Shown here: piece after piece, positions 2,574 to 19,045 of the stretch
How positions within the stretch are numbered: position 1 is the stretch's first letter
Layout of the letters: each line of letters begins with the position of its first letter
Virus record (IMG/VR): IMGVR_UViG_3300042479_000976
Location: 1-20,817 of that record
Source: a virus
Length of the DNA stretch: 20,817 bases
Strand: one strand, 5' to 3'
Notes under the pieces: generated by a model
Databases searched by the model: none
Seen by the model: the letters and a program-made list of their open reading frames with translations, nothing else
What the model was told of the DNA's origin: nothing
Position numbers and translations under genes: made by a program

Positions 2574-4331
2574 TTACCTTCTTTGACTTATACTCTTTAG
2601 AATTTCTTCCACAATATTTGTATCATCCTGTTGAATATCACCCATTACCGTTCCGATAATCCGCTTTTTAACATTTAAAATATCGTAAATAATTCCTTCA
2701 ATTGTATTGTCAAAAATTGGATAATACACCAAGACATTGTTTTTTTGTCCATATCTGTATGCTCTATCTTCAGCTTGAGAGTGGTCTGATGGAAGGAATG
2801 AAAGGTCATTCATAATAACCGCCTCACCTGATGTTAAGGTAATACCCACACCCGCAGCTTTGATGTTGCCAACAAAAACTTTAACCTTTTCATCTTCTTG
2901 GAATCTATCCACAGAATCTTGTCTTTGTATCTTGGACATTTGTCCATCAAGTCTAACTGCAGATTTTCCAAAGTGTTCAACAATGGTTTCCAAAGATTTG
3001 GTAAAGTTACAAAAAATAATAACTTTTTTTCCTTGTTCTATAATGTTCTCGGCAATTTCAATTGTATGTTGAGTCTTCTCCTCGGCAATCACCTGTCTTA
3101 CCTCGGTCAATTTGGTAAACTGAATTGAAAGGTTTTTACTTTCTTCAGGGTTTTTTTCGTACCAATTATAATAGTCACCCATAACTTCCTCGTATTTTTT
3201 TGAACGAAGTCTAAGGTAAACTGGTGTTATGATTTTATCGGGTAAATCCAACACGTCTTCTTTTAATCTTCTTAAAACGGTTGATGAGGTTCTGTCCCTC
3301 AATTCTTCCAAATGCGATGCCCCCATCACATTCCATACTTTTCTATTTCCAACTTTGAATTGGTAACCTGAGCAATAACGAACCACGTAAGCCATCCAAT
3401 TCTTTGCCACGGGTGAATCCACCAATGACAATAGATTGAAGTAATTAATGGGTCGTGAGGTCATAGGAGTACCCGTTAACAACCATAGTCTATCCACGTT
3501 CTTAACCAAATCATTAATTAGTTTGGTTCTTTGAGCTTGGACGTTTTGAACATAGTGAGCTTCATCAATAATAACCAAATCAAACTTTGATTTAAAAATT
3601 AAAGATTTCTCGTTGTCTTTTGTATCGTGAAAATTCTTGATGATGTCGTAGTTCATTATCAAAATGTCGTGATTCTCAGAAAAGTTCTTACCATCACAAA
3701 CATAACTCGTCTTATCAGAATACAGTAGGAATTCTCTTTGCCAGTTAATTTTAAGAGTTGCCGGACAAATAATTAAAATCTTTTTTGCCCCCGTCTCCAA
3801 CGCTGCGATGATTGTTGATGTGGTTTTACCCAAACCCATATCATCCGCCAAGATATACTTCTTATTTTTTAAGAGTTCTTCAATAGCAACCTTTTGGTGG
3901 TCCAACGGAGGACGGTGTGAATACTTGGAATAATCAATTTCTTTAATTTCAACTTTATTGTCTTTAATCAAAGATGCTTTGGGAATCCAAAAATCGGTAA
4001 ATGAATCGGCCTCAAAAAACTTACCCCACACATGATATGCTTTGTCTTTTTCAGCCAAGAGTTTTTCAACCCAAATCCTTTCAGGAATCTGAAGAAGAAA
4101 TTTGTCGTTGGCAAGTTTGTTTGCAAAGTACGAATCAAGGACAACCCACTTTTTCGCAACCTTGGGGGTCTTGTCTTTGTTGGTTAAAATATATTCCGAC
4201 TGAGCCCTTGTTGGATAAAACTTAGGATTTAATTGGAGTTTGTGTTTTAGGTTAATAATATAGTTATTTGCACCCTCATAACTTTCAAGTGCGGTAATTG
4301 CTTTGGATTCTATTGTAAGACTAATTCCCAT
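2574..4331 (-). CDS. SNF2-family DNA helicase/translocase (SMARCAL1/HARP-like)
   Basis: This 585-residue superfamily 2 ATPase shows all core SNF2 motifs (numbered from the ATG at 4331): RPPLDHQ at 140-146, Walker A DDMGLGKT at 163-170, DEAH at 256-259, LTGTP at 285-289, a motif V-like GNIKAAGVGITLT at about 488-500 and QAEDRAYRYGQ at 519-529. The last motif and the compact helicase core resemble the SMARCAL1/HARP-like branch, whose members remodel or anneal DNA at forks. An ATP-dependent role on phage DNA is inferred. The frame is open up to a TTG at 4364, but no ATG lies in that extension and the ATG at 4331 gives a sensible N-terminus. The gene lies 39 bases upstream of the SOD fusion on the same strand, so co-transcription is likely. 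It is a different subfamily from T4 UvsW, although it could fill a similar repair or recombination role. Confidence 0.88.
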   Translation of the reverse strand: MGISLTIESKAITALESYEGANNYIINLKHKLQLNPKFYPTRAQSEYILTNKDKTPKVAKKWVVLDSYFANKLANDKFLLQIPERIWVEKLLAEKDKAYHVWGKFFEADSFTDFWIPKASLIKDNKVEIKEIDYSKYSHRPPLDHQKVAIEELLKNKKYILADDMGLGKTTSTIIAALETGAKKILIICPATLKINWQREFLLYSDKTSYVCDGKNFSENHDILIMNYDIIKNFHDTKDNEKSLIFKSKFDLVIIDEAHYVQNVQAQRTKLINDLVKNVDRLWLLTGTPMTSRPINYFNLLSLVDSPVAKNWMAYVVRYCSGYQFKVGNRKVWNVMGASHLEELRDRTSSTVLRRLKEDVLDLPDKIITPVYLRLRSKKYEEVMGDYYNWYEKNPEESKNLSIQFTKLTEVRQVIAEEKTQHTIEIAENIIEQGKKVIIFCNFTKSLETIVEHFGKSAVRLDGQMSKIQRQDSVDRFQEDEKVKVFVGNIKAAGVGITLTSGEAVIMNDLSFLPSDHSQAEDRAYRYGQKNNVLVYYPIFDNTIEGIIYDILNVKKRIIGTVMGDIQQDDTNIVEEILKSISQRR

Positions 4332-4404
4332 CTCGTATTTATTGGTACGTAGGTTTATACACAAACATATTAAATATAATAAATAAGAATGTATTTATCA
4401 ATAT
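4332..4404. promoter_or_regulatory. Divergent intergenic control region
   Basis: This 73-base AT-rich gap separates the leftward SNF2 gene from the rightward gp14-like gene. It carries TATTTAT on the plus strand (4392-4398, six bases before the ATG at 4405) and TATTTAT on the minus strand (4385 down to 4379, 47 bases before the ATG at 4331). Divergent initiation from here is the simplest reading. No hairpin terminator is seen. Confidence 0.5.
4392..4398 (+). promoter_or_regulatory. TATTTAT leader motif before the gp14-like gene
   Basis: TATTTAT ends six bases before the ATG at 4405. If it acts like a T4-type late -10 box, transcription would begin at about the A of the ATG, giving a leaderless message. 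Confidence 0.4.
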
Positions 4405-6250: not shown

Positions 6251-9200
6251 ATGGCAACAGCACAAGCTAATCAGAAAGTATTTGTATCTCCAGGTGTTTA
6301 CACTTCGGAAACCGATTTGTCTTTCGTAGCCCAAAGCGTAGGTGTAACTACTTTGGGTCTAGTTGGTGAAACATTAAAGGGTCCAGCATTTGAACCTATT
6401 TTTATAACCAACTTTGACGAATTTCAAACATTCTTCGGAGGTACCGTTCCTGAAAAATTCATTGGAACGCAAATCCCTAAATATGAAGCCGCATATATTG
6501 CAAAGGCATATCTACAACAATCTAACCAATTATTCGTAACAAGAGTTCTTGGTTTATCAGGTTATGATGCGGGTCCTTCTTGGTCTATTAGAGTGACCGC
6601 TAACGTAGATGGTACGACAATCGGGGTAGATACGGATGTTGTAGCATTAGACTTTACTGCAGTAGTAACTGGTAACACAGGTGTTAGTAATGTTTTAAAC
6701 TTTACAACTCCATTACCTGACGTTATTGCTGACAATCTTAACATTCAATACTTGTTAAACAATGGCTCAACAAGCACTTACAACAAAGATATTTTTAATT
6801 TTATTTTAGGTGTTTCAGGTAACACAAATATTACAGGTACTACGTTGAATGTTTATGGTTCAATTCCTGAAACAGAATACAATGACTTGTCTGCACAATA
6901 CACAACTTTGGGTAACGTATTCAGTGTTGATAGTATGAACTTATTGTTTAACGATTTAACAGATTCTGTTAATGACCCTTGGTATTATGCAACTTTCACA
7001 AATTATTCTAATAATAGTTACTCAGGTTTTTCTTGGGATTACGCGGTTACGGATTTCACTACAGGTGGAACAGGAAATTTTGACGTAACTTTATCAGGTA
7101 CTGTTTATTACTACAGTGGAACTGCTTATACAGAGTACAATAACTTAGTTGTTGCAACTCTTCGTTCAAGAGGTATTTCAGTGTATGATGCTAACAATCA
7201 TGGTCCTGTTTATCAAGTAACAGGATTGACTGACTTGGATATGATTTGTACCGGAGCGTATTCGGGTGTTACAAATAGTCCATTCTCAACCTTCCTATTA
7301 AGTGGTGTTACTTATGAAAATAAAACATTCCAATTTGAAACTTCATTTGGTAGTGTTGATGCAAATTACATCACAAAGGTTCTTGGTATTACTAACTTCT
7401 CAAAATCAAGAACTGAGGTTCCTATTTATGTTGAAGAGTCATATCCAGGTTTATTAAATTATGCATATAACAAAGGATTTATTAAAGGATTAAACTGTGA
7501 TTTGATTGCTTTACCTGAAGCTAGGGATAAAAATTCAACAACTTCTATTGCTTGGTTCTTGGACCAATATCAAACACCAAAGACTCCATTTGTTGTATCT
7601 GAGTTAAGAGGTAACAAGGTTTATAACTTATTTAGATTTGCATCAATTTCAGATGGTGGTTCTGCAAACACAGAAGTTAAAATTTCAATCGCTAACATTT
7701 CATTCTCAAATCAAACTTTTGATGTTTTAGTTAGAGATTTCTTTGACACAGATGCAAATCCTGTTGTTTATGAAAAATACACAAACTGTACTATGGACCC
7801 AGGTTCTAACAGTTTTGTTGCTAAAAAGATTGGTTCTGCTAATGGTGAGTTTCCGTTAGTATCTGCTTACATCATGATTGAACTTTCTGATGAAGCACCA
7901 ATAGACGCATTACCTTGTGGTTTCCGTGGATTTGAAGAAAGAGTTTACGATAGTGTATCAAACCCTTCACCATTCCCTGTAATCAAAAACAAGTACTTCT
8001 TCCCAGGTGAAACAATCTTTGACCCCCCATTTGGAAGTACATACGGTGGAGCAAACATCGTGTCTTCAAGTGGTGACGTTGTAAGAAGAACTTACCTTGG
8101 TATGTCTTCACAATTTGGGGTTGACTCTGACTTATTACAATACAAAGGTAAACAAAACCCTGTAGTAGGTTGGGATACTGCAACTGAATCAGCACCATGG
8201 AACTACCAAACTCAAGGTTTCCACATGGACTCAGGAGCGACTGTTGTTACTATTAGTAACTTTGAAGTAACAAGTGGTACACCAGCGTTTGTTTGTGGTA
8301 TTGCAAGTTTTGATGGTGAACCAACAACTCAAGATAATCCATATTACTTCTTATACTCAAGAAAATATACATTCTGCTTCCAAGGTGGATTTGACGGATG
8401 GGATATCTACAGAGAGTTTAGAACAAACCAAGACAGATTTATGTTGGGTGCATCAGGATACTTACAAGGTTCTACACCTACTCAAAGATATCCGACAGCA
8501 TCTGGTGACGGTACGTTCAAGAGAATCGTTGTGGCGAACAATACACAAGATTTTGCAAACACCGACTACTACGCTTACTTACTTGGTATCTTGTCATTCA
8601 ATAACCCTGAATCAACAAACATCAACGTATTTGCAACTTCAAGTATTGATTACGTTAACAACTCTAACTTGTGTGAAACTGCAATTGGTATGGTTGAAAA
8701 TGAAAGAGCTGACTCGGTTTACATCGTGACAACTCCTGACTACAACATGTACACTTCAGACGGTGGTTCTCAATACGAAATTATCTACCCACAAGAATCG
8801 GTTGACAATTTGGATGATACAGGTATTGATTCATCATACACAGCAACTTACTACCCATGGATTTTGGAAAGAGATACTGTTAACAACACTCAAATATACT
8901 TACCACCAACAGGTCAAGTTTGTAGAAACTTAGCGTTGACTGACAACATTTCATTCCCATGGTTCGCATCGGCGGGTTACACAAGAGGTCTTGTTAACTC
9001 AGTTAAGGCAAGATTGAAACTTACACAAGAAGATAGAGACACCTTGTATCAAGGTCGTATTAACCCAATCGCAACCTTCTCTGATGTTGGAACCGTAATT
9101 TGGGGTAACAAAACTCTTCAAGTTAAAGATTCGGCTCTTAACAGATTGAACGTAAGAAGATTGTTGTTACAAGCTCGTAAATTGATTTCAGCGGTGGCAG

Positions 9201-9451
9201 TTAGATTGTTGTTTGAACAAAATGACGAAATCGTAAGACAACAGTTCTTGGATTCGGTTAACCCTATCCTTGACGCAATCAGAAGAGACAGAGGTCTTTA
9301 TGACTTCCGTGTAACAGTAAGTTCTTCACCTGAAGATTTGGATAGAAACACATTAACAGGTAAAATTTACTTAAAACCTACGAAAGCACTTGAATTCATT
9401 GATATTGAATTCTTCATCACTCCAAGTGGAGCTTCGTTTGAAAATATCTAA
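6251..9451 (+). CDS. 18: Tail sheath protein (gp18 family), unusually long
   Basis: This is the contractile sheath subunit that polymerises around the tail tube and shortens on infection. The N-terminus has the hallmark SPGVYTSETDLS, followed by LGLVGETLKGPA and FQTFFGG. A conserved central segment at about residues 457-545 contains SISDGGSANTEVKI and FFDTD...CTMDP. The C-terminal core, about residues 865-1066, contains LYQGRINPIATFSDVG, the IWGNKTLQ strand and RRLLLQARKLISAVAVRLLF, ending in an acidic beta hairpin with SSPEDLDRNTLTGKIYL. The 1066 residues far exceed T4 gp18 (659). The excess falls mainly at about residues 110-410, a Gly/Thr/Asn/Tyr-rich, probably beta-structured region expected on the outer face, plus added material at about 560-860. 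A strong terminator follows the stop. No Shine-Dalgarno is seen before the ATG. Confidence 0.95.
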   Translation: MATAQANQKVFVSPGVYTSETDLSFVAQSVGVTTLGLVGETLKGPAFEPIFITNFDEFQTFFGGTVPEKFIGTQIPKYEAAYIAKAYLQQSNQLFVTRVLGLSGYDAGPSWSIRVTANVDGTTIGVDTDVVALDFTAVVTGNTGVSNVLNFTTPLPDVIADNLNIQYLLNNGSTSTYNKDIFNFILGVSGNTNITGTTLNVYGSIPETEYNDLSAQYTTLGNVFSVDSMNLLFNDLTDSVNDPWYYATFTNYSNNSYSGFSWDYAVTDFTTGGTGNFDVTLSGTVYYYSGTAYTEYNNLVVATLRSRGISVYDANNHGPVYQVTGLTDLDMICTGAYSGVTNSPFSTFLLSGVTYENKTFQFETSFGSVDANYITKVLGITNFSKSRTEVPIYVEESYPGLLNYAYNKGFIKGLNCDLIALPEARDKNSTTSIAWFLDQYQTPKTPFVVSELRGNKVYNLFRFASISDGGSANTEVKISIANISFSNQTFDVLVRDFFDTDANPVVYEKYTNCTMDPGSNSFVAKKIGSANGEFPLVSAYIMIELSDEAPIDALPCGFRGFEERVYDSVSNPSPFPVIKNKYFFPGETIFDPPFGSTYGGANIVSSSGDVVRRTYLGMSSQFGVDSDLLQYKGKQNPVVGWDTATESAPWNYQTQGFHMDSGATVVTISNFEVTSGTPAFVCGIASFDGEPTTQDNPYYFLYSRKYTFCFQGGFDGWDIYREFRTNQDRFMLGASGYLQGSTPTQRYPTASGDGTFKRIVVANNTQDFANTDYYAYLLGILSFNNPESTNINVFATSSIDYVNNSNLCETAIGMVENERADSVYIVTTPDYNMYTSDGGSQYEIIYPQESVDNLDDTGIDSSYTATYYPWILERDTVNNTQIYLPPTGQVCRNLALTDNISFPWFASAGYTRGLVNSVKARLKLTQEDRDTLYQGRINPIATFSDVGTVIWGNKTLQVKDSALNRLNVRRLLLQARKLISAVAVRLLFEQNDEIVRQQFLDSVNPILDAIRRDRGLYDFRVTVSSSPEDLDRNTLTGKIYLKPTKALEFIDIEFFITPSGASFENI

Positions 9452-9500: not shown

Positions 9501-10316
9501 ATGAATAGAATTAAAGAAGGTTTTGAAGGTAAGGCACCAGATTTAAAATACTATGCCTTTGATTGGGATGACAACATCGTTCACATGCCAACCAAGATAG
9601 TTTTGGAAGACACTTCAGGTGACGAGGTGGAAATGTCAACTGAAGACTTTGCAACTTTTAGAGACAGAATTGGGAATGAACCATTTGATTATATGGGTAG
9701 AACAATCAAAGGTTATGCTGAAAAACCATTTAGAAATTTTAAAGTGGAGGGTGACAAACAATTTTTGATAGATGCTATGAGGGCAAAACCAGGTCCGGCT
9801 TGGGATGATTTTAAAGAGGCAATCAATAACGGTTCCATTTTTGCGATAATCACTGCGAGGGGTCACAACCCAAAAACCATCAAAGAGGGTGTATACAATT
9901 ACATCATTAACAACTATGAGGGTATTGATAAAAAAGAGTTATTAAAAAACTTAAAAAAATATCGTGATTTTGTGGGTGAAGAAGAAATGACGGATGAAGA
10001 ATTAATTCGTTCTTACTTAGAACTCAACAAATATAATCCGGTAAGTTTCGGTGAGGGTTCCGCGGCAAACCCTGAAGAACTTAAAGTAACGGCTATGGAA
10101 GATTTTGTAAGATATGTGAAATCCATGGCGGCACTTTTACAAAAAAGTGCAATACTTAAAAAAGATATTGCCAATAAATTTTCTCCTAGAATGCCTTTAA
10201 TTGGCTTTTCAGATGATGATATTAAGAATGTAGATGTAATGAAGAAACATTTTGATAAAATCAAAGAACCAATTAAGGTATATTCTACTAAAGGAGGAAT
10301 TAAAAAAGAATACTAG
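9501..10316 (+). CDS. HAD-superfamily phosphatase-like protein
   Basis: This 271-residue protein carries HAD motifs. Motif I is FDWDDNI with D21 as the expected nucleophile and D23 as the acid/base. Motif II is IITARGH with T118. The acidic motif IV is IGFSDDD with D238-D239 as metal ligands. A lysine for motif III is likely in the 190-225 region (K195 or a nearby lysine), but I cannot fix which one. HAD enzymes mostly remove phosphate from small molecules, nucleotides or nucleic-acid ends. The substrate here cannot be told. An insertion of about 90 residues between motif I and motif II would be a cap. It is not the DVDGT form of T4 polynucleotide kinase. The gene sits between sheath and tube genes that are adjacent in T4, and follows a terminator, so it looks like an accessory insertion. 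Confidence 0.75.
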   Translation: MNRIKEGFEGKAPDLKYYAFDWDDNIVHMPTKIVLEDTSGDEVEMSTEDFATFRDRIGNEPFDYMGRTIKGYAEKPFRNFKVEGDKQFLIDAMRAKPGPAWDDFKEAINNGSIFAIITARGHNPKTIKEGVYNYIINNYEGIDKKELLKNLKKYRDFVGEEEMTDEELIRSYLELNKYNPVSFGEGSAANPEELKVTAMEDFVRYVKSMAALLQKSAILKKDIANKFSPRMPLIGFSDDDIKNVDVMKKHFDKIKEPIKVYSTKGGIKKEY

Positions 10317-10426: not shown

Positions 10427-10915
10427 ATGGCTGATTTATTAATGAAAATGCCCATACCTTACGAACCGAAGCGTCAAAACCGCTTTATCCTAAGGTTTCC
10501 TTCTTCGTTAGGTATTAACGAATGGTTTGTTGAATCAACAAAACGTCCATCAATCAAAATTAATTCAACTGAGATTCAGTTTTTGAATACATCAACATTT
10601 GTTGCTGGTAGATTTAACTGGGATGAAATTCCGGTTACCTTCCGTGACCCAATTGGTCCATCTGCGGCTCAAGCTCTTATGGAGTGGGTTCGTTTACATG
10701 CTGAATCGGTGACAGGTCGTATGGGTTACGCTGCGGGTTATAAAAAAGATATTGACCTTGAGATGTTAGACCCAACAGGTGTTGTTGTTGAAAAATGGAT
10801 TTTGTACGGAACATTCCTAACAAATGTGGATTTCCAAACACTTAACTATTCCCAAGATGGATTAGCAACAATTTCTTGTAGTTTAAGACCTGACCGTTGT
10901 GTTTTAATTTACTAA
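10427..10915 (+). CDS. 19: Tail tube protein (gp19 family)
   Basis: This 162-residue protein is almost the same length as T4 gp19 (163) and would form the inner tube inside the sheath. Features of the tube fold include an N-terminal basic NRFILRFPSSLG strand, a WFVESTKRPSIK segment, the FNWDEIPVTFRDPIGPSA turn, a helix with LMEWVRLHAES, and a final beta hairpin with FLTNVDFQTLNYSQDG and SLRPDRCVL. Its place downstream of the sheath gene and upstream of hub genes fits the T4 order, apart from the HAD gene between. The leader reads AAAACAAC before the ATG, with no Shine-Dalgarno. A perfect-stem terminator follows 35 bases after the stop, as expected for a high-copy structural gene expressed on its own short message. 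Confidence 0.92.
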   Translation: MADLLMKMPIPYEPKRQNRFILRFPSSLGINEWFVESTKRPSIKINSTEIQFLNTSTFVAGRFNWDEIPVTFRDPIGPSAAQALMEWVRLHAESVTGRMGYAAGYKKDIDLEMLDPTGVVVEKWILYGTFLTNVDFQTLNYSQDGLATISCSLRPDRCVLIY

Positions 10916-10983: not shown

Positions 10984-11724
10984 ATGGAAGATATATCACA
11001 ATACGGACAAGAAAATTTCTCAATGCCACATGACGTGGTTCAATTACCTTCAAGAGGTATTTTTTATAAAAACAAAAAAAGTTCTGTCAAGGTAGGATAC
11101 CTAACCGCAGCAGATGAAAATATTTTGATGGGGAGAAGTGAAGATGTTACCATGCAACTTCTTAGAAATAAATTGTATGAACCAGGTATGAAACCTGAAG
11201 AGTTACTTGAGGGTGATATTGAAGCAATTTTAATTTTTTTAAGAAATACATCTTTCGGACCTGAAATGGAAATGTCTTTGAAAGACCCTGTAACGGGTAA
11301 TGAATTCAAAACACAAGTTTTGTTGGATGAATTAAACATCAATAAAGGGGTTGAACCTGATACTGATGGTACATTTTCGGCGACTTTACCTGTATCAGGT
11401 GTTCAAGTTAAATTAAAACCACTTACTTATGGTGATGGTTTAGAACTTAGAAAAATATTTGAGTCATACCCACAAGGTAGGGTTGTTCCAAGAGTTACGA
11501 TGAGATTAGTAAAAGAAATTCAAAGTATTAATGGAAGTACTGATAAGGGTGAAATTACAAAATTTGTAGAACAGATGCCAATCGCTGACTCTAAATTCAT
11601 TAAAAAATTTATGAATGAAAATGAACCAAGATTGGATATGGAAAGAATTGTTATGGCCCCGTCAGGAGAAAAACTCACAGTGAATGTTGGGTTTGGGGTC
11701 GAATTTTTTCGTCCTTTCTTCTGA
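10984..11724 (+). CDS. Baseplate hub protein, gp26-like (T4 baseplate family)
   Basis: This 246-residue protein (T4 gp26 is about 208) begins with a short acidic segment followed by VVQLPSRGIFY. The LPSRG motif and the following strand are the family signature of T4 gp26-type hub proteins. A predicted helical region with LTAADENILMG, then LLEGDIEAILIFLRNTSFGPE, then LKPLTYGDGLELRKIF, also fits that family. The protein would act in assembly of the central hub of the baseplate. The ATG lies directly after the tube-gene terminator with no Shine-Dalgarno. The last 41 bases overlap a small gene in the +1 frame, which may be expressed separately or by frameshifting. Confidence 0.7.
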   Translation: MEDISQYGQENFSMPHDVVQLPSRGIFYKNKKSSVKVGYLTAADENILMGRSEDVTMQLLRNKLYEPGMKPEELLEGDIEAILIFLRNTSFGPEMEMSLKDPVTGNEFKTQVLLDELNINKGVEPDTDGTFSATLPVSGVQVKLKPLTYGDGLELRKIFESYPQGRVVPRVTMRLVKEIQSINGSTDKGEITKFVEQMPIADSKFIKKFMNENEPRLDMERIVMAPSGEKLTVNVGFGVEFFRPFF

Positions 11725-11893: not shown

Positions 11894-13633
11894 ATGGCTG
11901 ACAACAATCCGAATGATTTTAATAGTATGGGTGATGTATTCAAGGCATATCAAGATACCTTGAACTTTAAAGACACCATAGATAAAATCTATACGGGAAT
12001 TAATAATATTAATAAGTCTTTTGGTGATAGTAGATTAAGAGCTGTTGAGTTTTCAAACGCTATTAGTGATTCTGCATCAAGTTTAGTCCGTGTTGGTGCT
12101 TCTCTTGATGATATTGATACAACAATTATTGCTATCAGTGAAGGTGCTCGTAGAAATGTAATTGAAACTACAGACACAATCACTGAAATTTATGCCGCGG
12201 CACAACTTATTGGCCAACAAGCAGACCCAGCAAGACTTGTTGAGAATTTCCAAGCTGCGGGATATGAAATATCACAAGTTGGGGAAACAGTTGCCGAATC
12301 CATTGGATATGTTCAAAGTTTAGGACTTAATTCAAGAAAAATCATGCAAGACGTTGTCAATAGCATGGAATACATGAATAGGTTTAATTTTTCTGATGGT
12401 GTTGTTGGATTGACAAAAATGGCTGCACAGGCATCTATGTTACGATTTGATATGGCAACCACCGCCAAATTCGCTGACAGTGTTATGAATCCACAAGGTG
12501 CTATTGAAATGGCATCTGCGTTCCAAAGATTGGGTGTTATGGCGGGTGATTTAGTTGACCCGTTTGTGTTGATGGACAAATCAATTAACGACCCAGCAGG
12601 ACTTCAAGATAGTTTAATTAATCTCACCAAGCAATTTACAATGTTTGACGAAAAGACTCAATCATTTAAAATTGCGCCGGGAGCTCAAAGACAAATTAAA
12701 GAAATAGCCGAAGCTGCGGGAATGACCGCCGCTGAATTTACAAAAACCGCACTATCTGCCGCTGACATGGATAGAAGACTTGGTCAGATTAATCTTGGTA
12801 TTAATGCAACTGAAGAAGAAAAAATGTTGGTTGCCAACATGGCTAAGATGGGTACGGGAGCTTTTAAGGGTGACTATGTTGTTCAGATTAAAGACGATGA
12901 AGGCAAGGACCAAACGAAAAGGTTAAGTGACTTACAATCAGAAGAATTCCAAAAATTAAGGGAAATTCAAGAAAGTGCTCCAAAAACAGTTGAAGAAATA
13001 CAAAGGTCTCAACTTGGTGTGATGGAAACGATACAAAGAGATTTGGCGGCATTACCAATCCAAATTGGATATGCTATTGGTGGACAATCAGCAATTATTA
13101 GAGGTGCTGAAGCAACTAAAAGAATTGGGGATGACATTGCAAGTGCCTTATATTCTAAAGGGGTTTTAGGTAGTGGTGAAGACTCAAGAAAATTCTTTGA
13201 AGCTGTTGGTGATGATTTTCAAGACTTGCTGGTTAAAGCATCTCAAGGAGACACAAAGGCACTTGAAGGTGTTACAAAAAGATTGGATGAGAAGTCCTCT
13301 CAACTTGAAAGTGGGGTTTATGCAAGATTTACAGAATTTGTATCTCAACTTGGTATTGAAAAACCTAGGGATTCTATAGAACAGTCTTATAACAATTTGA
13401 CTAGTGGGATAGTTCAAAAGGCAAAACAAAGTGCTGCTAAAGAACAATCGGCTAACCAACAAAAAGATGTGAATATTAATGGTCAAGTAAGATTTGTTAT
13501 TGATGCACCTGTGGGTGTTGATACTGCCAGACTTACACAATATGTTCAAAGTCCTGAATTTAGAAATGCGTTAGTAAAAGTTCTTGGTGAAATAGATGAA
13601 AATGGTACGAAACCACTTCCATCAAGAAAATAA
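11894..13633 (+). CDS. Tail tape-measure/hub protein, gp29-like candidate
   Basis: This 579-residue protein is close to the length of T4 gp29 (590), the tape measure that sets tube length and joins the hub. It is largely helical by composition, rich in Ala, Gln, Asp and Ser, with repeated alpha-helical stretches (for example FSNAISDSASSLVRVGASLD and AAGMTAAEFTKTALSAADMD). It has no clear enzymatic motif or signal peptide. The C-terminal part ends in a conserved-looking beta segment, INGQVRFVIDAPVGVDTARL, followed by a short helix. Its location after gp26/gp51-type genes and before baseplate genes fits a hub/tape-measure role. The family identity is inferred from length, composition and context, not from a diagnostic motif. 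Confidence 0.55.
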   Translation: MADNNPNDFNSMGDVFKAYQDTLNFKDTIDKIYTGINNINKSFGDSRLRAVEFSNAISDSASSLVRVGASLDDIDTTIIAISEGARRNVIETTDTITEIYAAAQLIGQQADPARLVENFQAAGYEISQVGETVAESIGYVQSLGLNSRKIMQDVVNSMEYMNRFNFSDGVVGLTKMAAQASMLRFDMATTAKFADSVMNPQGAIEMASAFQRLGVMAGDLVDPFVLMDKSINDPAGLQDSLINLTKQFTMFDEKTQSFKIAPGAQRQIKEIAEAAGMTAAEFTKTALSAADMDRRLGQINLGINATEEEKMLVANMAKMGTGAFKGDYVVQIKDDEGKDQTKRLSDLQSEEFQKLREIQESAPKTVEEIQRSQLGVMETIQRDLAALPIQIGYAIGGQSAIIRGAEATKRIGDDIASALYSKGVLGSGEDSRKFFEAVGDDFQDLLVKASQGDTKALEGVTKRLDEKSSQLESGVYARFTEFVSQLGIEKPRDSIEQSYNNLTSGIVQKAKQSAAKEQSANQQKDVNINGQVRFVIDAPVGVDTARLTQYVQSPEFRNALVKVLGEIDENGTKPLPSRK

Positions 13634-13667: not shown

Positions 13668-16600
13668 ATGCCAAGTCCATTAGATTTTCCTAGTTCCGAG
13701 GTTTTTAGAAAGAAACTTATTGTTAGGAACCTTGTGCCATACAAAAAGTCGCCATCAAGTATTACCCCTCCGATTAACTATGAGACAATCCTTAGGGATA
13801 TGGCTCCTACGGACAGTAATGATGCGTTAATTGACAATCCAACTTTTGCCAACCAAGCATATCCTCTTAACCAATATGGTAGAGATGGTGGATATATTCA
13901 GGTACCTGATGTTAACACCCTTAAGAATACAAACTCAAACGAGGGGGAGTATGATTACACCGATGCAACAATCATCAACGAAAGTCAACGAGCTGCTCGT
14001 ACAGGTTTCCCTGGTATTCAAGGTGCTTGGTTACCACTTAATCCATTTGGTGGAACAAACACACAGAATCAGTTATATGATTCAGGATTGTTCTTCACCC
14101 AATTAGAAATTTTACAAAACAGACATGGTAGAGGTTCTAATAACCAACCATATCCTGATACATTTAATGCTTCATCATATAGAGCATCATCACTTATTTT
14201 GAACCCCGACCCCCAAGGTTCGGATGGTTTGTTATCAAATGACTCTTACTTAGCAAAAATCAGTGCCAGTTTCTACAAGGAACAGTTCTTATTCAATGCT
14301 GCAAGAGAAATAAGACGAAACACATTAGGAAGAATAAACTTCCTTAATGTCAACGGAGGTGCAAATATCCTCAATATCTTAACAGGTAGGGTTCCAATTT
14401 TGGAACCAAACTACACCATCACACAACCAACATCATTGTTGGGTGCGTCAGCCGATTTATTAAATAGGGTTTCGGGAACTTATGTTCCACTATCTACAAT
14501 ACCAGGAAGTTATTTTGACACAAGTATTAACCCCCAAAATCAGGGAACCACACAGCAATTGTTTGGTGCTTATGCGGGGGCTAACTTGGCATCGGGAATC
14601 GGGAGATTCTTCGGTAGACTTTTTGGTTCACCTAAGACAGGTTCGGTGTTGTTTTTGGAAAACACCGGAGCCGGTCAAAAGTCTATATTGTTTAAAAACT
14701 TAGAATACAACATTTATAGACCAAACTATTCAAAGAATATCTTTGATAGAGTTGCAGGGATTCTAAGACCCGCAACAGAAAACTCAGGGTTTTATTATGT
14801 TGGTTCAGAGACTTCAGAACCGAGTAATGTATTCTCACCCGTTGGTGATGTACCTACCGACCAATTCGGAAGAGAGGTCAAAGCACCTGTTTACGGACCG
14901 TCAGAACTTTCACAACTTTATGAAGGACCTGGTAAAGCTCTTAGACTTGGGGCTAACGGACCGACATACAGTAGTGGTGGGGGTATTGAAGGTGGTTTCA
15001 CTTGGGTATCACCAAAATTCAGAGGAAATGCTGGTAAGTATGTAAGTCCTGGTGGAGACCCAACAAGTGAAGACCCTGACTTTGGACCTGCAGGATACGG
15101 TCCAACTGAATCAACAAACTACACCTTCAGACAAGGTTCTATCTTGGATGATACCCAACGTATCATTGATTCACAGCCAAGAGGAGGTAAGAGATTCCAA
15201 CACGTAGGAAATGCTATTGACCAAGTATCCAAGGTATTTAACGATGGATATAAAGAAATTACCAAAGGTTCAAAAGTTGTTCGCTATGTTGGTGAAATCG
15301 GTCAAGAAAGAGGTGCCGAGTATTGTAGAATCTTCACCAAAGATACACCATACCTTCAGTTTAATGACTTGCAGAAAACCGATGGTATTACCACACAAGG
15401 TAGAAAGTTTGCTTATTCCGTGTTTGATAACACATATAACTTAAACATTGCACCAAACAAAAGAGAAGGTGGGCAAGACTCTACTAATATAGTGGGGGGA
15501 TATCCATTTGGTGGTGGGTTCTATGCTAAGAAGTATATGTTCTCGTTGGAGAATTTGGCATGGAGAACATCAAACAAACCAGGTCTATCGGTTCAAGATT
15601 TACCTGCCTGTGAACGTGGTCCGAATGGGGGTAGAGTAATGTGGTTCCCACCATATGGTTTAACATTCAACGAATCAACCAGAGCTGGTTTCAAACAGAC
15701 TGATTTCATTGGTCGTCCTGAACCTGTATACACTTACAATAATACGTCAAGAACGGGTCAATTAACTTGGAAGATTGTTGTTGACCACCCATCTGTATTA
15801 AACATGTTGGTTAACAAGGTATTATCAAACGAAGTTCTTAAGAGTAGAGTAGATGGTATATTGGAGTCATTCTTTGCAGGTTGTAGAAAATATGACTTGT
15901 ATGAATTGGCTCAAAAATATTATACAATCAACCCACGAGACATTTTTGAAATACAACAAAAATTATCAACTAAAAATGTTACAACCGAAGAGGTTCGTTA
16001 TTTAACAAACACCATTCAAACAGGTAATGATGCGACTACTGGTGGGGGTGGAAATGGTGCTGGTGTACAAGTTAATGATGGTAACAGTTCACAGACAGGT
16101 AATTCAAGTGAGAAATTCACAGGTGATATCGGAGCATTGTATTTTGATAACGATATTCCTAAACCAAACATTCCTGTTGAAAGTTATTTAACATACTACG
16201 CTGCTTACACGTCACAAACAACCAAAAATAGTTATCAATCACAGGCAAATGTTGATGAAAGAGAACCTATTAAGACTTTTTATACAAGTATTATAGAATC
16301 AAATAAAATCAAAATTGATTCTAAAGTTAATTTAATGAAACAAAAATTATCACAAGGTGGTATTCTTGAGATAGTTTTAGTTGGTAGTGCATCATCCCCA
16401 GCAAACGAAACCTATAATGACGCTTTATCACAAAGAAGAATAAATGCAGTAAAGAAATATTTCTTAGAAACATTAGGTCTTCAAACGTATTTGGATAACA
16501 AACAAATAACTTTTGTTGAGATTGCTGATGGTGAAACAATTGTTATTCCTGAGTCTGAAATTGGGGATGTTGTTAACATTTTTGATGAGGTAAATTGTAC

Positions 16601-18722
16601 AAAAAATCTTGTGGGTCAAGATAAAATTTATTCAACAAATGCCATGGCATGTAGAAGAGTAAAACTTACTGTTAACGACAAAACACCGGTACCTGTTCAA
16701 CAACCATCAAAGATTGACCCAACACAACCAAGGGTTCAAGAACAATTAACAACTGTTGTTAATTCCAAAACCGTTGTTCAACAAGTTATAACAGAAGAAA
16801 CTGTTCTTAGAGACAACATTACTAAGAGAGTTTTAAGAAGTTTATTATCTGAATGTGATTATTTTGAGGTGATTAAACAAGAGACACCAATGGTGTACGA
16901 TAACCTCAAAGAGAAGTTAAAATTTTTCCACCCATCATTTCACTCAATCACACCTGAAGGATTAAACAGTAGACTTACATTTTTACAACAATGTATGAGA
17001 CCTGGTGATACAATACCTACGGTCAATTCTGAAGGACAATTAGAATATAATAACGCCATTAACACCGCATTTGGTGCACCTCCGGTATTGGTTTTAAGAG
17101 TTGGTGACTTTTTCCACTCTAAAATTATTCCTGATAACCTTTCACTTACTTATGAAGGTTTAGATTTAAACCCTGAAGGTATTGGGGTTCAACCTATGAT
17201 TGCTAACGTCACTTTATCATTTAGTTTTGTTGGTGGACAAGGTTTAAAAAGTGCTGTAGACAAACTACAAAACGCATTAACATTTAACTTCTACGGTAAC
17301 ACAGAAATTTATGATGATAGGGCAGACGCGACTGATGATAGTTATAAAGTTTTAGACCAACAATTTGTAAAGAATTTAGGATTAGAAGTACCACCACCAA
17401 CGATTAACCAAGTTGAAAATACAAGACCACAATCTAACTTAGAGACTATTGGTAAGGTTTTAACCACTGAAACAAATGAAAACGGTGTTCAATACGGAAC
17501 GATAGAATATAAAACATTAATGACCCAATTAGTTGGAAGTACTCAAAATTATTTTGCAACAATTGTTAATAAAACTAAAGATGTTAATAGTCAATATAAC
17601 AACGCAATTAGACAATTGTTCCCAATACAAAGAAATTACACTGATGGTTACATATTGGCTTATAGTTCAAATGACATTGTAAACATTTACGGTAAACCAA
17701 TTAATTTCCAAAAAACTGTTGATGATTTATTTTCTCAATATATTAGTAATATAGATTCTGAAAATGGTTTTGTTGGGTATATGAATACTACCGAATTCAA
17801 TTTCTCAAAAAAGGCGTTGAGACAATTGAAACAAAATATGAAAACATTTGTTACAGAAAAACAGAATAGTTTTGTTAATCCATTATCAACAATTATTCAG
17901 AGTATAACAAATGCACAAACACAATACATACAATTACTTGCAAGAACAAATGTTATTACATACAATCCATTATCTGCGAGTGAAGGTACCGATGGATATC
18001 AACAAACAAATGGACTTGAAGTAATTTATAATATTTCGGGTACAACTGCAATCCACAGTTCATCAGTTGGTGTTACAAACACGTATGAAGAAATAAGTGC
18101 GGATTTTGAAAAAATTGCTAATAATTTAGAGGCGTTTGACGATGCTTGTCAAATTGATTTTCAAACAACAATTAATGGTGTGGCTTATACCGGTATGTTT
18201 GTCACCGACCCACTTCAGGCTAACGAGGTTACTCAAAATGTTTTTGTTCCGTTTACAAAGGATGATTGGTGGAATGAAAATGCAAAACGTAGGGAATATG
18301 CTTTATTATCAAAAGATGTTATTGACCAAAAACTTTATGAAGCGTTTGAAAATGCTATTATTGGTAATATTATAACCAATAAAGATTTAGTTGGTGAAGG
18401 TAAAGATGATTTTCAAAATAAATTCAGAAATTATTGGCAAAAAGATTCTCGTAGAGTATATTCTAAAGAAGATGAGGTTACAAAAGCTTGGATTAATGAA
18501 TTTGAAAAATCTCCGATGATAAACCCCATAAACTTTTTGAATTACACGCCATTCCCATTGGACAAGAAAAGAGTATTCACATATGAAGTTTCATCAACTC
18601 CAACGGCAGAACAGAAGACATACATTAAAGATTTGGGATTAAAGAATAATACTAATACGGATACATCTAAGTGGGCAACCATAAACGGAAGTGTTATAAC
18701 AACTAAAGTAGAATTACTATAA
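13668..18722 (+). CDS. Giant baseplate protein with an embedded OmpA-like domain
   Basis: This 1684-residue protein is not confidently matched to one T4 gene. The N-terminal 600 residues are Asn/Gly/Tyr-rich and probably beta-structured. Around residues 645-715 a FPPYGLTFNESTRAGF segment is followed by YTYNNTSRTGQLTWKIVVDH. A similar pattern recurs at about 1148-1215 (NLSLTYEGLDLNPEGIGVQP, then strands ending SFSFVGGQG). Between them, after a Gly-rich linker (about 788-815), residues about 820-985 resemble an OmpA-like peptidoglycan-binding domain: LYFDND at 824-829, then GSASS at 906-910 and N917, with LSQRR at 920-924. The usual aspartate of the GxTD/GHxD strand is a serine. A Pro/Gln-rich linker follows. 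The C-terminal 400 residues are helical and charged. It lies upstream of the gp53-like gene and is coupled to it by TAATG. A baseplate or tail-initiator role is inferred from context. Confidence 0.6.
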   Translation: MPSPLDFPSSEVFRKKLIVRNLVPYKKSPSSITPPINYETILRDMAPTDSNDALIDNPTFANQAYPLNQYGRDGGYIQVPDVNTLKNTNSNEGEYDYTDATIINESQRAARTGFPGIQGAWLPLNPFGGTNTQNQLYDSGLFFTQLEILQNRHGRGSNNQPYPDTFNASSYRASSLILNPDPQGSDGLLSNDSYLAKISASFYKEQFLFNAAREIRRNTLGRINFLNVNGGANILNILTGRVPILEPNYTITQPTSLLGASADLLNRVSGTYVPLSTIPGSYFDTSINPQNQGTTQQLFGAYAGANLASGIGRFFGRLFGSPKTGSVLFLENTGAGQKSILFKNLEYNIYRPNYSKNIFDRVAGILRPATENSGFYYVGSETSEPSNVFSPVGDVPTDQFGREVKAPVYGPSELSQLYEGPGKALRLGANGPTYSSGGGIEGGFTWVSPKFRGNAGKYVSPGGDPTSEDPDFGPAGYGPTESTNYTFRQGSILDDTQRIIDSQPRGGKRFQHVGNAIDQVSKVFNDGYKEITKGSKVVRYVGEIGQERGAEYCRIFTKDTPYLQFNDLQKTDGITTQGRKFAYSVFDNTYNLNIAPNKREGGQDSTNIVGGYPFGGGFYAKKYMFSLENLAWRTSNKPGLSVQDLPACERGPNGGRVMWFPPYGLTFNESTRAGFKQTDFIGRPEPVYTYNNTSRTGQLTWKIVVDHPSVLNMLVNKVLSNEVLKSRVDGILESFFAGCRKYDLYELAQKYYTINPRDIFEIQQKLSTKNVTTEEVRYLTNTIQTGNDATTGGGGNGAGVQVNDGNSSQTGNSSEKFTGDIGALYFDNDIPKPNIPVESYLTYYAAYTSQTTKNSYQSQANVDEREPIKTFYTSIIESNKIKIDSKVNLMKQKLSQGGILEIVLVGSASSPANETYNDALSQRRINAVKKYFLETLGLQTYLDNKQITFVEIADGETIVIPESEIGDVVNIFDEVNCTKNLVGQDKIYSTNAMACRRVKLTVNDKTPVPVQQPSKIDPTQPRVQEQLTTVVNSKTVVQQVITEETVLRDNITKRVLRSLLSECDYFEVIKQETPMVYDNLKEKLKFFHPSFHSITPEGLNSRLTFLQQCMRPGDTIPTVNSEGQLEYNNAINTAFGAPPVLVLRVGDFFHSKIIPDNLSLTYEGLDLNPEGIGVQPMIANVTLSFSFVGGQGLKSAVDKLQNALTFNFYGNTEIYDDRADATDDSYKVLDQQFVKNLGLEVPPPTINQVENTRPQSNLETIGKVLTTETNENGVQYGTIEYKTLMTQLVGSTQNYFATIVNKTKDVNSQYNNAIRQLFPIQRNYTDGYILAYSSNDIVNIYGKPINFQKTVDDLFSQYISNIDSENGFVGYMNTTEFNFSKKALRQLKQNMKTFVTEKQNSFVNPLSTIIQSITNAQTQYIQLLARTNVITYNPLSASEGTDGYQQTNGLEVIYNISGTTAIHSSSVGVTNTYEEISADFEKIANNLEAFDDACQIDFQTTINGVAYTGMFVTDPLQANEVTQNVFVPFTKDDWWNENAKRREYALLSKDVIDQKLYEAFENAIIGNIITNKDLVGEGKDDFQNKFRNYWQKDSRRVYSKEDEVTKAWINEFEKSPMINPINFLNYTPFPLDKKRVFTYEVSSTPTAEQKTYIKDLGLKNNTNTDTSKWATINGSVITTKVELL

Positions 18723-19045
18723 TGGCGTTAGGATATTATAACAGATACAATCTTTTTTACATAAATGGTGAACAAACTGTTGTCCCTTATGTTACTGTAC
18801 CTACAAAACCTTCAGATAAGGTTTATGTTTATAAAGTTGGTGTGAGTAGATTAGATAAAGTTTCTCAAGAATATTATGGTACACCATTCTTCGGTTGGTT
18901 GATACTACAGGCAAATCCTCAATATAGTGGTATGGAAAATAATATATTTGACGGTGCTATATTGAGTATTCCATATCCTTTAGTAACTTCATTACAAGAT
19001 TATAAATCAGCTGTAGAGGCACACTTCTTTTATTATGGTAGGTAA
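18722..19045 (+). CDS. Baseplate wedge protein with LysM-like fold, gp53-like
   Basis: This 107-residue protein starts at an ATG overlapping the previous stop by one base (TAATG). Residues about 40-85 carry a LysM/tail-protein-X pattern: VSRLDKVSQEYYGTPFFGWL, then LQANP, then DGAILSIPYP. This matches the RxDxIxxKYYGxPxxxWxIxxAN...GxxLxIP pattern of T4 gp53-type wedge proteins, but the protein is shorter than T4 gp53 (196). Such proteins join wedges into the baseplate ring and do not necessarily bind peptidoglycan. It is soluble with no signal peptide. Its stop overlaps the start of the next gene by 11 bases, so three baseplate genes in a row are likely translated in a coupled way. Confidence 0.7.
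   Translation: MALGYYNRYNLFYINGEQTVVPYVTVPTKPSDKVYVYKVGVSRLDKVSQEYYGTPFFGWLILQANPQYSGMENNIFDGAILSIPYPLVTSLQDYKSAVEAHFFYYGR

Follow-up and report, generated by a model that had tools for sequence, protein, structure and literature searches.

The window, that is the whole 20,817-base stretch of a virus record analysed here, is a genome fragment of a contractile-tailed phage. The tail genes are all encoded on the + strand, beginning with the tail sheath (6251–9451; PHROG 23, E 3.6e-54). This is followed by a tail tube protein (10427–10915; PHROG 4542, E 5.5e-25), a T4_baseplate family protein (10984–11724; PF12322 E 9.4e-10, PHROG 150 E 7e-15) and a likely tape measure of 579 residues (11894–13633). 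The latter has no family match of its own in Pfam or PHROG and is assigned by its position, which corresponds to that of the gene annotated as tape measure in Flavobacterium phage immuto. Its downstream neighbour is a giant protein of 1684 residues (13668–18722), an open frame whose full length is conserved in relatives from IMG/VR. The operon continues with a gp53/LysM-like baseplate wedge protein of 107 residues (18722–19045; PHROG 7145 E 1e-4, LysM NCBIfam E 0.02) and a long downstream protein. An earlier, sequence-only reading had described the giant as a baseplate protein, and the sheath, tube and T4_baseplate genes upstream and the gp53/LysM-like gene downstream do place it in a tail/baseplate operon. 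In 335 of 342 loci the giant gene has the gp53/LysM-like gene directly behind it, and a tube gene lies upstream in most.

Among the other genes of the window, a 271-residue protein encoded between the sheath and the tube (9501–10316, + strand) shows HAD-like motifs by eye (FDWDDN, ITARG and GFSDDD) and has no credible family match. A homologue sits upstream in locus L078, where it gives a second OmpA match (13 bits) that was judged to be due to chance. On the strand opposite to the tail genes, positions 1008–2534 encode a 508-residue protein with an Fe/Mn superoxide dismutase domain (Pfam Sod_Fe_C E 1e-40), in which the expected metal-ligand motifs are present by eye and which is fused to a C-terminal part of ~280 residues without a known family. 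In the phage collection it is matched over the dismutase part only (less than 40% of its length), by records several of which resemble bacterial DNA. A SNF2-family helicase (2574–4364, − strand; PF00176 E 4e-27) adjoins this fusion.

The giant protein contains a conserved core in two halves, here given with their coordinates on the + strand. The N-side half (residues 480–750, 15105–15917; GGRVMWFPPY...FIGRPEPVYTYNNTSRTG...VVDHPSVLN) has a column identity of 0.7–0.9 and is present in distant relatives. The C-side half (residues 1046–1240, 16803–17387; HPSFHSITPEGLNSRLTFLQQC...LNPEGIGVQPM...) has a column identity of 0.75–0.9 over most of its length, with motifs that are invariant in distant relatives. 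Between the two halves lies an OmpA_C-like domain (residues ~822–1008, 16131–16691), which is preceded by a Gly/Ser/Asn-rich linker (~785–817, 16020–16118; per-column conservation 0.36–0.5) and followed by a poorly conserved Pro/Gln-rich linker (~1003–1036, 16674–16775). The proposal of a module tethered by Gly-rich (~790–817) and Pro/Gln-rich linkers is thereby upheld. Per-column conservation in the OmpA part and linkers is mostly 0.35–0.6, as against 0.7–0.9 over most of the core halves. Neither core half has a credible match in the PDB or PHROG by profile search, or in Pfam, and no homology of the core to a baseplate protein of known structure was found in these three collections. A profile comparison with the tube protein gave a probability of 0.1, leaving a tube-like fold without support, and an AlphaFold model of residues 560–1290 has a core pLDDT of 52, which is too low for placing the module in the core. 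Pfam matches of the giant frame to VacA2 and lipase (E 0.01–0.2) were judged to be chance.

The identity of the inserted domain rests on profiles and on its predicted structure. In the profile search that had been proposed with the sequence-only reading, Pfam OmpA matches the whole giant protein with an E-value of 7.4e-4 and the isolated domain with 5.1e-5, although the domain's score of 24.0 bits, like that of the whole-protein match, is below the gathering cut-off of 27.2 bits. The same family is matched by the domains of 35 of 46 relatives at E ≤ 0.1, with the next family matched by only 7. A profile of these 46 domains aligns to OmpA/Pal chains in the PDB from E 1.5e-5, with the segment legsaSapasksYNkeLskrRids in register with the motif of the solved domains. 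AlphaFold predicts a βαβαββ fold (pLDDT 91.2, pTM 0.87), for which the top PDB folds in Foldseek are OprF, A. baumannii OmpA and PorE (probability 1.00, TM by target 0.52–0.62), along with further OmpA domains. From profiles and model together, residues ~822–1008 are confirmed to form a complete predicted OmpA_C-like domain, as had been claimed for this 1684-residue protein. Of the extent first assigned to it (16126–16620), the end fell ~25 residues short, since the domain runs to ~1008 (near 16691) and includes a last strand, ACRRVKL, at residues 994–1000 (16647–16667).

This last strand, which is also a strand in the AlphaFold model, is the counterpart of the OmpA NRRVEI strand, and both C995 and R996 are found in 139 of 141 family members. 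C977 (16596–16598) is kept in 139/141, as is C995 (16650–16652), and this co-conserved Cys pair near the last strand presumably recalls the disulphide of the E. coli OmpA C-terminal domain. The first strand, LYFDND (residues 824–829, 16137–16154), is similarly well conserved, with Y825 in 125 and F826 in 119 of 126 unique relatives, and is probably the counterpart of the Phe–Asp pair lining the diaminopimelate (DAP) pocket in PorE (PMC7192894). Helix 2 carries the N..L[SA]..R motif and the last strand the RRV, and N917, L920, R924 and R996 are nearly invariant in the family. An extension of ~50 residues with helices lies between strand 1 and the long main helix. The predicted fold, the motif order and the spacing of the Tyr/Asn/Leu/Arg crevice all match those of OmpA_C-like peptidoglycan-binding domains (A. 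baumannii OmpA 3td3–3td5, OprF 5u1h, PorE 6top and Pal), from which the phage domain differs in this extension, in a Ser for the DAP-contacting Asp, and in its location inside a viral tail protein.

The motifs LYFDND (824–829), GSASS (906–910), N917 and LSQRR (920–924) occupy in the translated frame exactly the positions first reported for them. Within GSASS (16383–16397), S909 (16392–16394) lies under the D of GHTD in the HMMER alignment, and the Ser at the Asp-contact position is therefore as originally described. The rest of the DAP pocket motif, YNxxLSxxR, is formed by Y916, N917, L920, S921 and R924 (16413–16439). In PorE the DAP contacts include Asp576, Tyr583, Asn584, Ile587 and Arg591 (PMC7192894), and their offsets of +7, +8, +11 and +15 from the Asp are exactly those of Y916, N917, L920 and R924 from S909. 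Similarly, the TagL contacts Asp486, Asn494, Leu497 and Arg501 (PMC8253398) map by exact spacing to S909, N917, L920 and R924. Of the features of a canonical DAP-type pocket, the Asp that bonds the DAP amino group is absent from the window's domain (S909), and the Arg that salt-bridges the DAP carboxylate (R924) and the Asn contact (N917) are present.

Among 141 non-redundant members (<90% identity), position 909 is Ser in 134, Asn in 3, Asp in 2 and Gln in 2, while R924 is kept in 139 and N917 in 137. The two Asp members are sisters nested among Ser members in a midpoint-rooted tree of the core. In a sample of 54 inserts from the wider superfamily, the window's domain included, the position is Ser in 42, Gly in 6, Thr in 4 and Asp in none, with L920 retained in 49 and R924 in 51. 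Because Ser predominates in both sets and Asp is confined to 2/141 and 0/54, the loss of the Asp is ancestral, an old and stable variant of the pocket and not recent decay. The suggestion that binding is altered or lost can be narrowed accordingly: alteration is the more likely, and loss the less likely, since the rest of the DAP pocket is retained and the Ser is fixed family-wide and in distant relatives. The conservation of the pocket residues other than the Asp in the family, and of the Leu and Arg also throughout the superfamily, means that the crevice has been kept for something.

A first scan found relatives in 557 IMG/VR stretches, of which the best 80 of 557 were kept, and further scans from diverged members added relatives that include contigs of 317–321 kb. 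The OmpA profile is matched by 306 of the 308 full-length IMG/VR proteins having both core halves; the remaining two (L167 and L168) have a degenerate copy retaining the final CRRV strand, and degenerate copies also occur in L314 and L319. Distant homologues in genome collections come from a contig in a Prochlorococcus single-cell genome (L325), a rumen Bacteroidales MAG contig (L324) and a Paludibacteraceae MAG contig (L326), and relatives overall were found in contigs assigned to Prochlorococcus, Holophagaceae and Bacteroidales. These distant homologues and further viral loci have the same two core halves with 153–977 residues between them. What fills this slot is usually OmpA-like, in the Prochlorococcus and rumen Bacteroidales contigs too. 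The wider-superfamily inserts mostly share ~15–25% identity; Pfam OmpA is matched at E ≤ 0.01 by 27 of the 54 sampled, most of the others show the motif by eye, and at least two homologous inserts score above the Pfam cut-off (L376, 39.6 bits; L367, 30.4 bits). In one homologue (L387) the OmpA domain is absent and the slot holds only a low-complexity linker which, together with the few degenerate copies, indicates that the domain is dispensable in some lineages. The longest insert, of 977 residues at the OmpA site in L393, carries the motif GATKQD...LADRRA together with a long extension that looks helical. A scan with the Bacteroidales homologue L324 gave no pattern match, and tblastn against 50,697 phage records, using as queries the giant protein, the C-core, the OmpA domain and two distant homologues, gave no significant relative.

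The proteins at the same gene position in Flavobacterium phage immuto (716 residues) and Microcystis phage Mel-JY01 (2255 residues) sit between a long upstream gene, annotated as the tape measure in immuto, and a LysM-like protein of ~100 residues. They have in common with the giant family a core motif of the type GRxExxYTYxxxxR (hhalign probability 89, E 2e-6). In a first comparison the alignment of the core to these proteins runs across the point where the OmpA insertion was excised; a second comparison of the core to immuto, with more diverged sequences, covers the N-side half only. No OmpA-like domain was found in either syntenic protein. As the core halves are conserved (0.75–0.9) around a variable domain that the syntenic proteins lack, the OmpA-like module is best taken to have been inserted, on flexible linkers, into an older protein of the baseplate operon, whose core it divides in two. 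The baseplate label itself follows from the gene order, with its gp53/LysM-like neighbour, and from the remote similarity to the immuto and Mel-JY01 proteins, from which we infer that a large clade of uncultured phages with contractile tails has the giant as a conserved component of its baseplates. In T4 the gene order is 29-48-54, and by analogy the place of the giant gene after the tape measure makes a gp48/gp54-like tube initiator an attractive identity, kept here as a lead. The Mel-JY01 protein (L081, 26592–33359) also carries a long array of ~45-residue repeats (FDWDGKREQAP...FDISKRNTFVGFHTFAQLYDTKYVPESSI).

The inserted module has diverged more rapidly than its surroundings. In the few available pairs of ~95% identical relatives, dS is ~0.5 in the OmpA domain and ~0.15–0.25 in its flanks, and the nucleotide identity of the domain is 87–91% as against ~94–97% around it. 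In such close pairs the C-terminus of the tape measure is the most diverged segment in the tail genes compared, with 77–82% nucleotide identity as against ~95%. The C-terminal third of this gene (13000–13600) resembles a swapped module. That the OmpA-like module and the C-terminus of the tape measure rank among the stretches of the tail region that differ most is as expected of host-facing parts, and gives a hint, from few pairs, that host-facing segments are exchanged or undergo diversifying replacement. Distance matrices for the OmpA domain and the core correlate with a Spearman coefficient of 0.40–0.50, compared with 0.67 for the N-core against the C-core, which fits a module that evolves faster, or in part independently, without proving exchange. 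The dN/dS ratio in the domain is 0.06–0.12, and this low value, a mark of purifying selection, indicates that the domain is functional.

An OmpA-like fold with an Asp-to-Ser change in a conserved tail protein suggests contact of the tail with the cell wall of the host in the course of infection. The module is most likely wall-contacting, with an altered pocket, and we would give even chances to its binding a stem-peptide-like ligand and engaging the wall during passage of the tube. In such a mechanism the module would bind the stem peptide of host peptidoglycan, at the diaminopimelate end, in the usual OmpA/Pal crevice. With Ser in place of the Asp whose hydrogen bond holds the DAP amino group, recognition would be weaker or different, and the bound module could dock the end of the tail to the wall, or steady it there, during passage of the tube. 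This explanation builds on what the analysis shows of the domain's identity, its predicted fold, its insertion, the ancestral Ser, the retained pocket, the purifying selection and the tail operon; from there we infer the baseplate location of the module, its exposure to the wall, its binding and the timing. Its fullest form is put forward tentatively: a wall latch within a core baseplate protein of widespread, uncultured, large contractile-tailed phages, whose ancestral Ser-type OmpA-like pocket, when the end of the tube passes through the periplasm, may grip the peptidoglycan of the host or some variant of it, and which diversifies faster than the core. The wall-contacting explanation is supported by the fold, the exact pocket spacing, the existence of cellular Ser-type proteins, the insertion into a conserved core, the tail-operon context and the divergence between close relatives. 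Against it, the Asp conserved in canonical peptidoglycan binders of the OmpA family is missing, the conserved Asn, Leu and Arg could be retained for folding, and some lineages dispense with the domain.

The main rival, itself a possible reading that falls short of being probable, is that in the baseplate the fold acts between proteins, as a spacer or for docking to the wedge, hub or tape measure, and binds no peptidoglycan. The near-complete lack of the DAP-contacting Asp agrees with this, and the extra helices, the ~50-residue extension and the conserved Cys pair suggest family-specific contacts. However, in a superfamily of such low identity conservation is highest at L920 and R924, and for the most part at N917, none of which a mere spacer would need, and the module varies faster than the core. 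It is unlikely, but consistent with an almost uniform Ser alongside a retained carboxylate-binding Arg, that the pocket recognizes, as a co-receptor, another small amino- or carboxyl-bearing group, for instance a modified stem peptide or a component of the outer membrane or surface. The cellular GYASPEG proteins described below have the same change and the relatives' contigs are assigned to the three different groups given above, although the Ser variant has no established ligand to favour this reading. Finally, an acquired OmpA domain that has lost binding and is drifting would account for the missing Asp and the four degenerate members, but is very improbable and is disfavoured by the low dN/dS and by retention of the domain in 306/308 proteins and across deep relatives.

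Contractile tails are usually thought to deal with peptidoglycan, after piercing of the outer membrane, by means of lysozyme domains. If the wall-contacting reading is true, an OmpA-like module in a core baseplate protein would represent a non-enzymatic way to engage the wall, occurring in hundreds of environmental phages, with none of the 50,697 phage records searched yielding a relative. A close parallel is the peptidoglycan-binding domain of TagL from type VI secretion (5m38), which is OmpA-like and ties a contractile injection machine to peptidoglycan, and whose binding-required Asn, Leu, Ser and Arg are also present in the phage domain. Unlike the phage module, TagL is an inner-membrane accessory protein that holds the machine to its own cell's wall, has the Asp, and is separate from the baseplate polypeptide. 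Annotated OmpA-domain proteins of phages (e.g. R9ZWT8 of Cellulophaga phage phi17:2) similarly place such a domain in a phage protein, but they are separate and shorter (~330–480 residues) and match weakly in structure (E 0.02–0.12). Anchoring of contractile machines by OmpA-like domains and phage OmpA-domain proteins are thus already known. We found no earlier description of a core baseplate protein with an OmpA-like insertion, still less of one that is fixed throughout a large clade of uncultured phages; within our incomplete coverage of the literature, no paper reporting such a domain within a phage baseplate protein was found, nor an established ligand for a Ser-type OmpA pocket.

The phage module also draws attention to a naturally occurring Ser-type OmpA pocket, common to some cellular proteins of Bacteroidales, within one small and well-predicted domain. 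Two (L415 and L417) of the 28 OmpA matches in two Bacteroidales genomes, both above the Pfam cut-off, are cellular OmpA-family proteins with the motif GYASPEG...N..LS..RA. They have in common with the phage domain the Ser at the Asp position followed by N..LS..RA. In both, GYASPEG replaces GHTD, giving a cellular Ser-type variant of the pocket.
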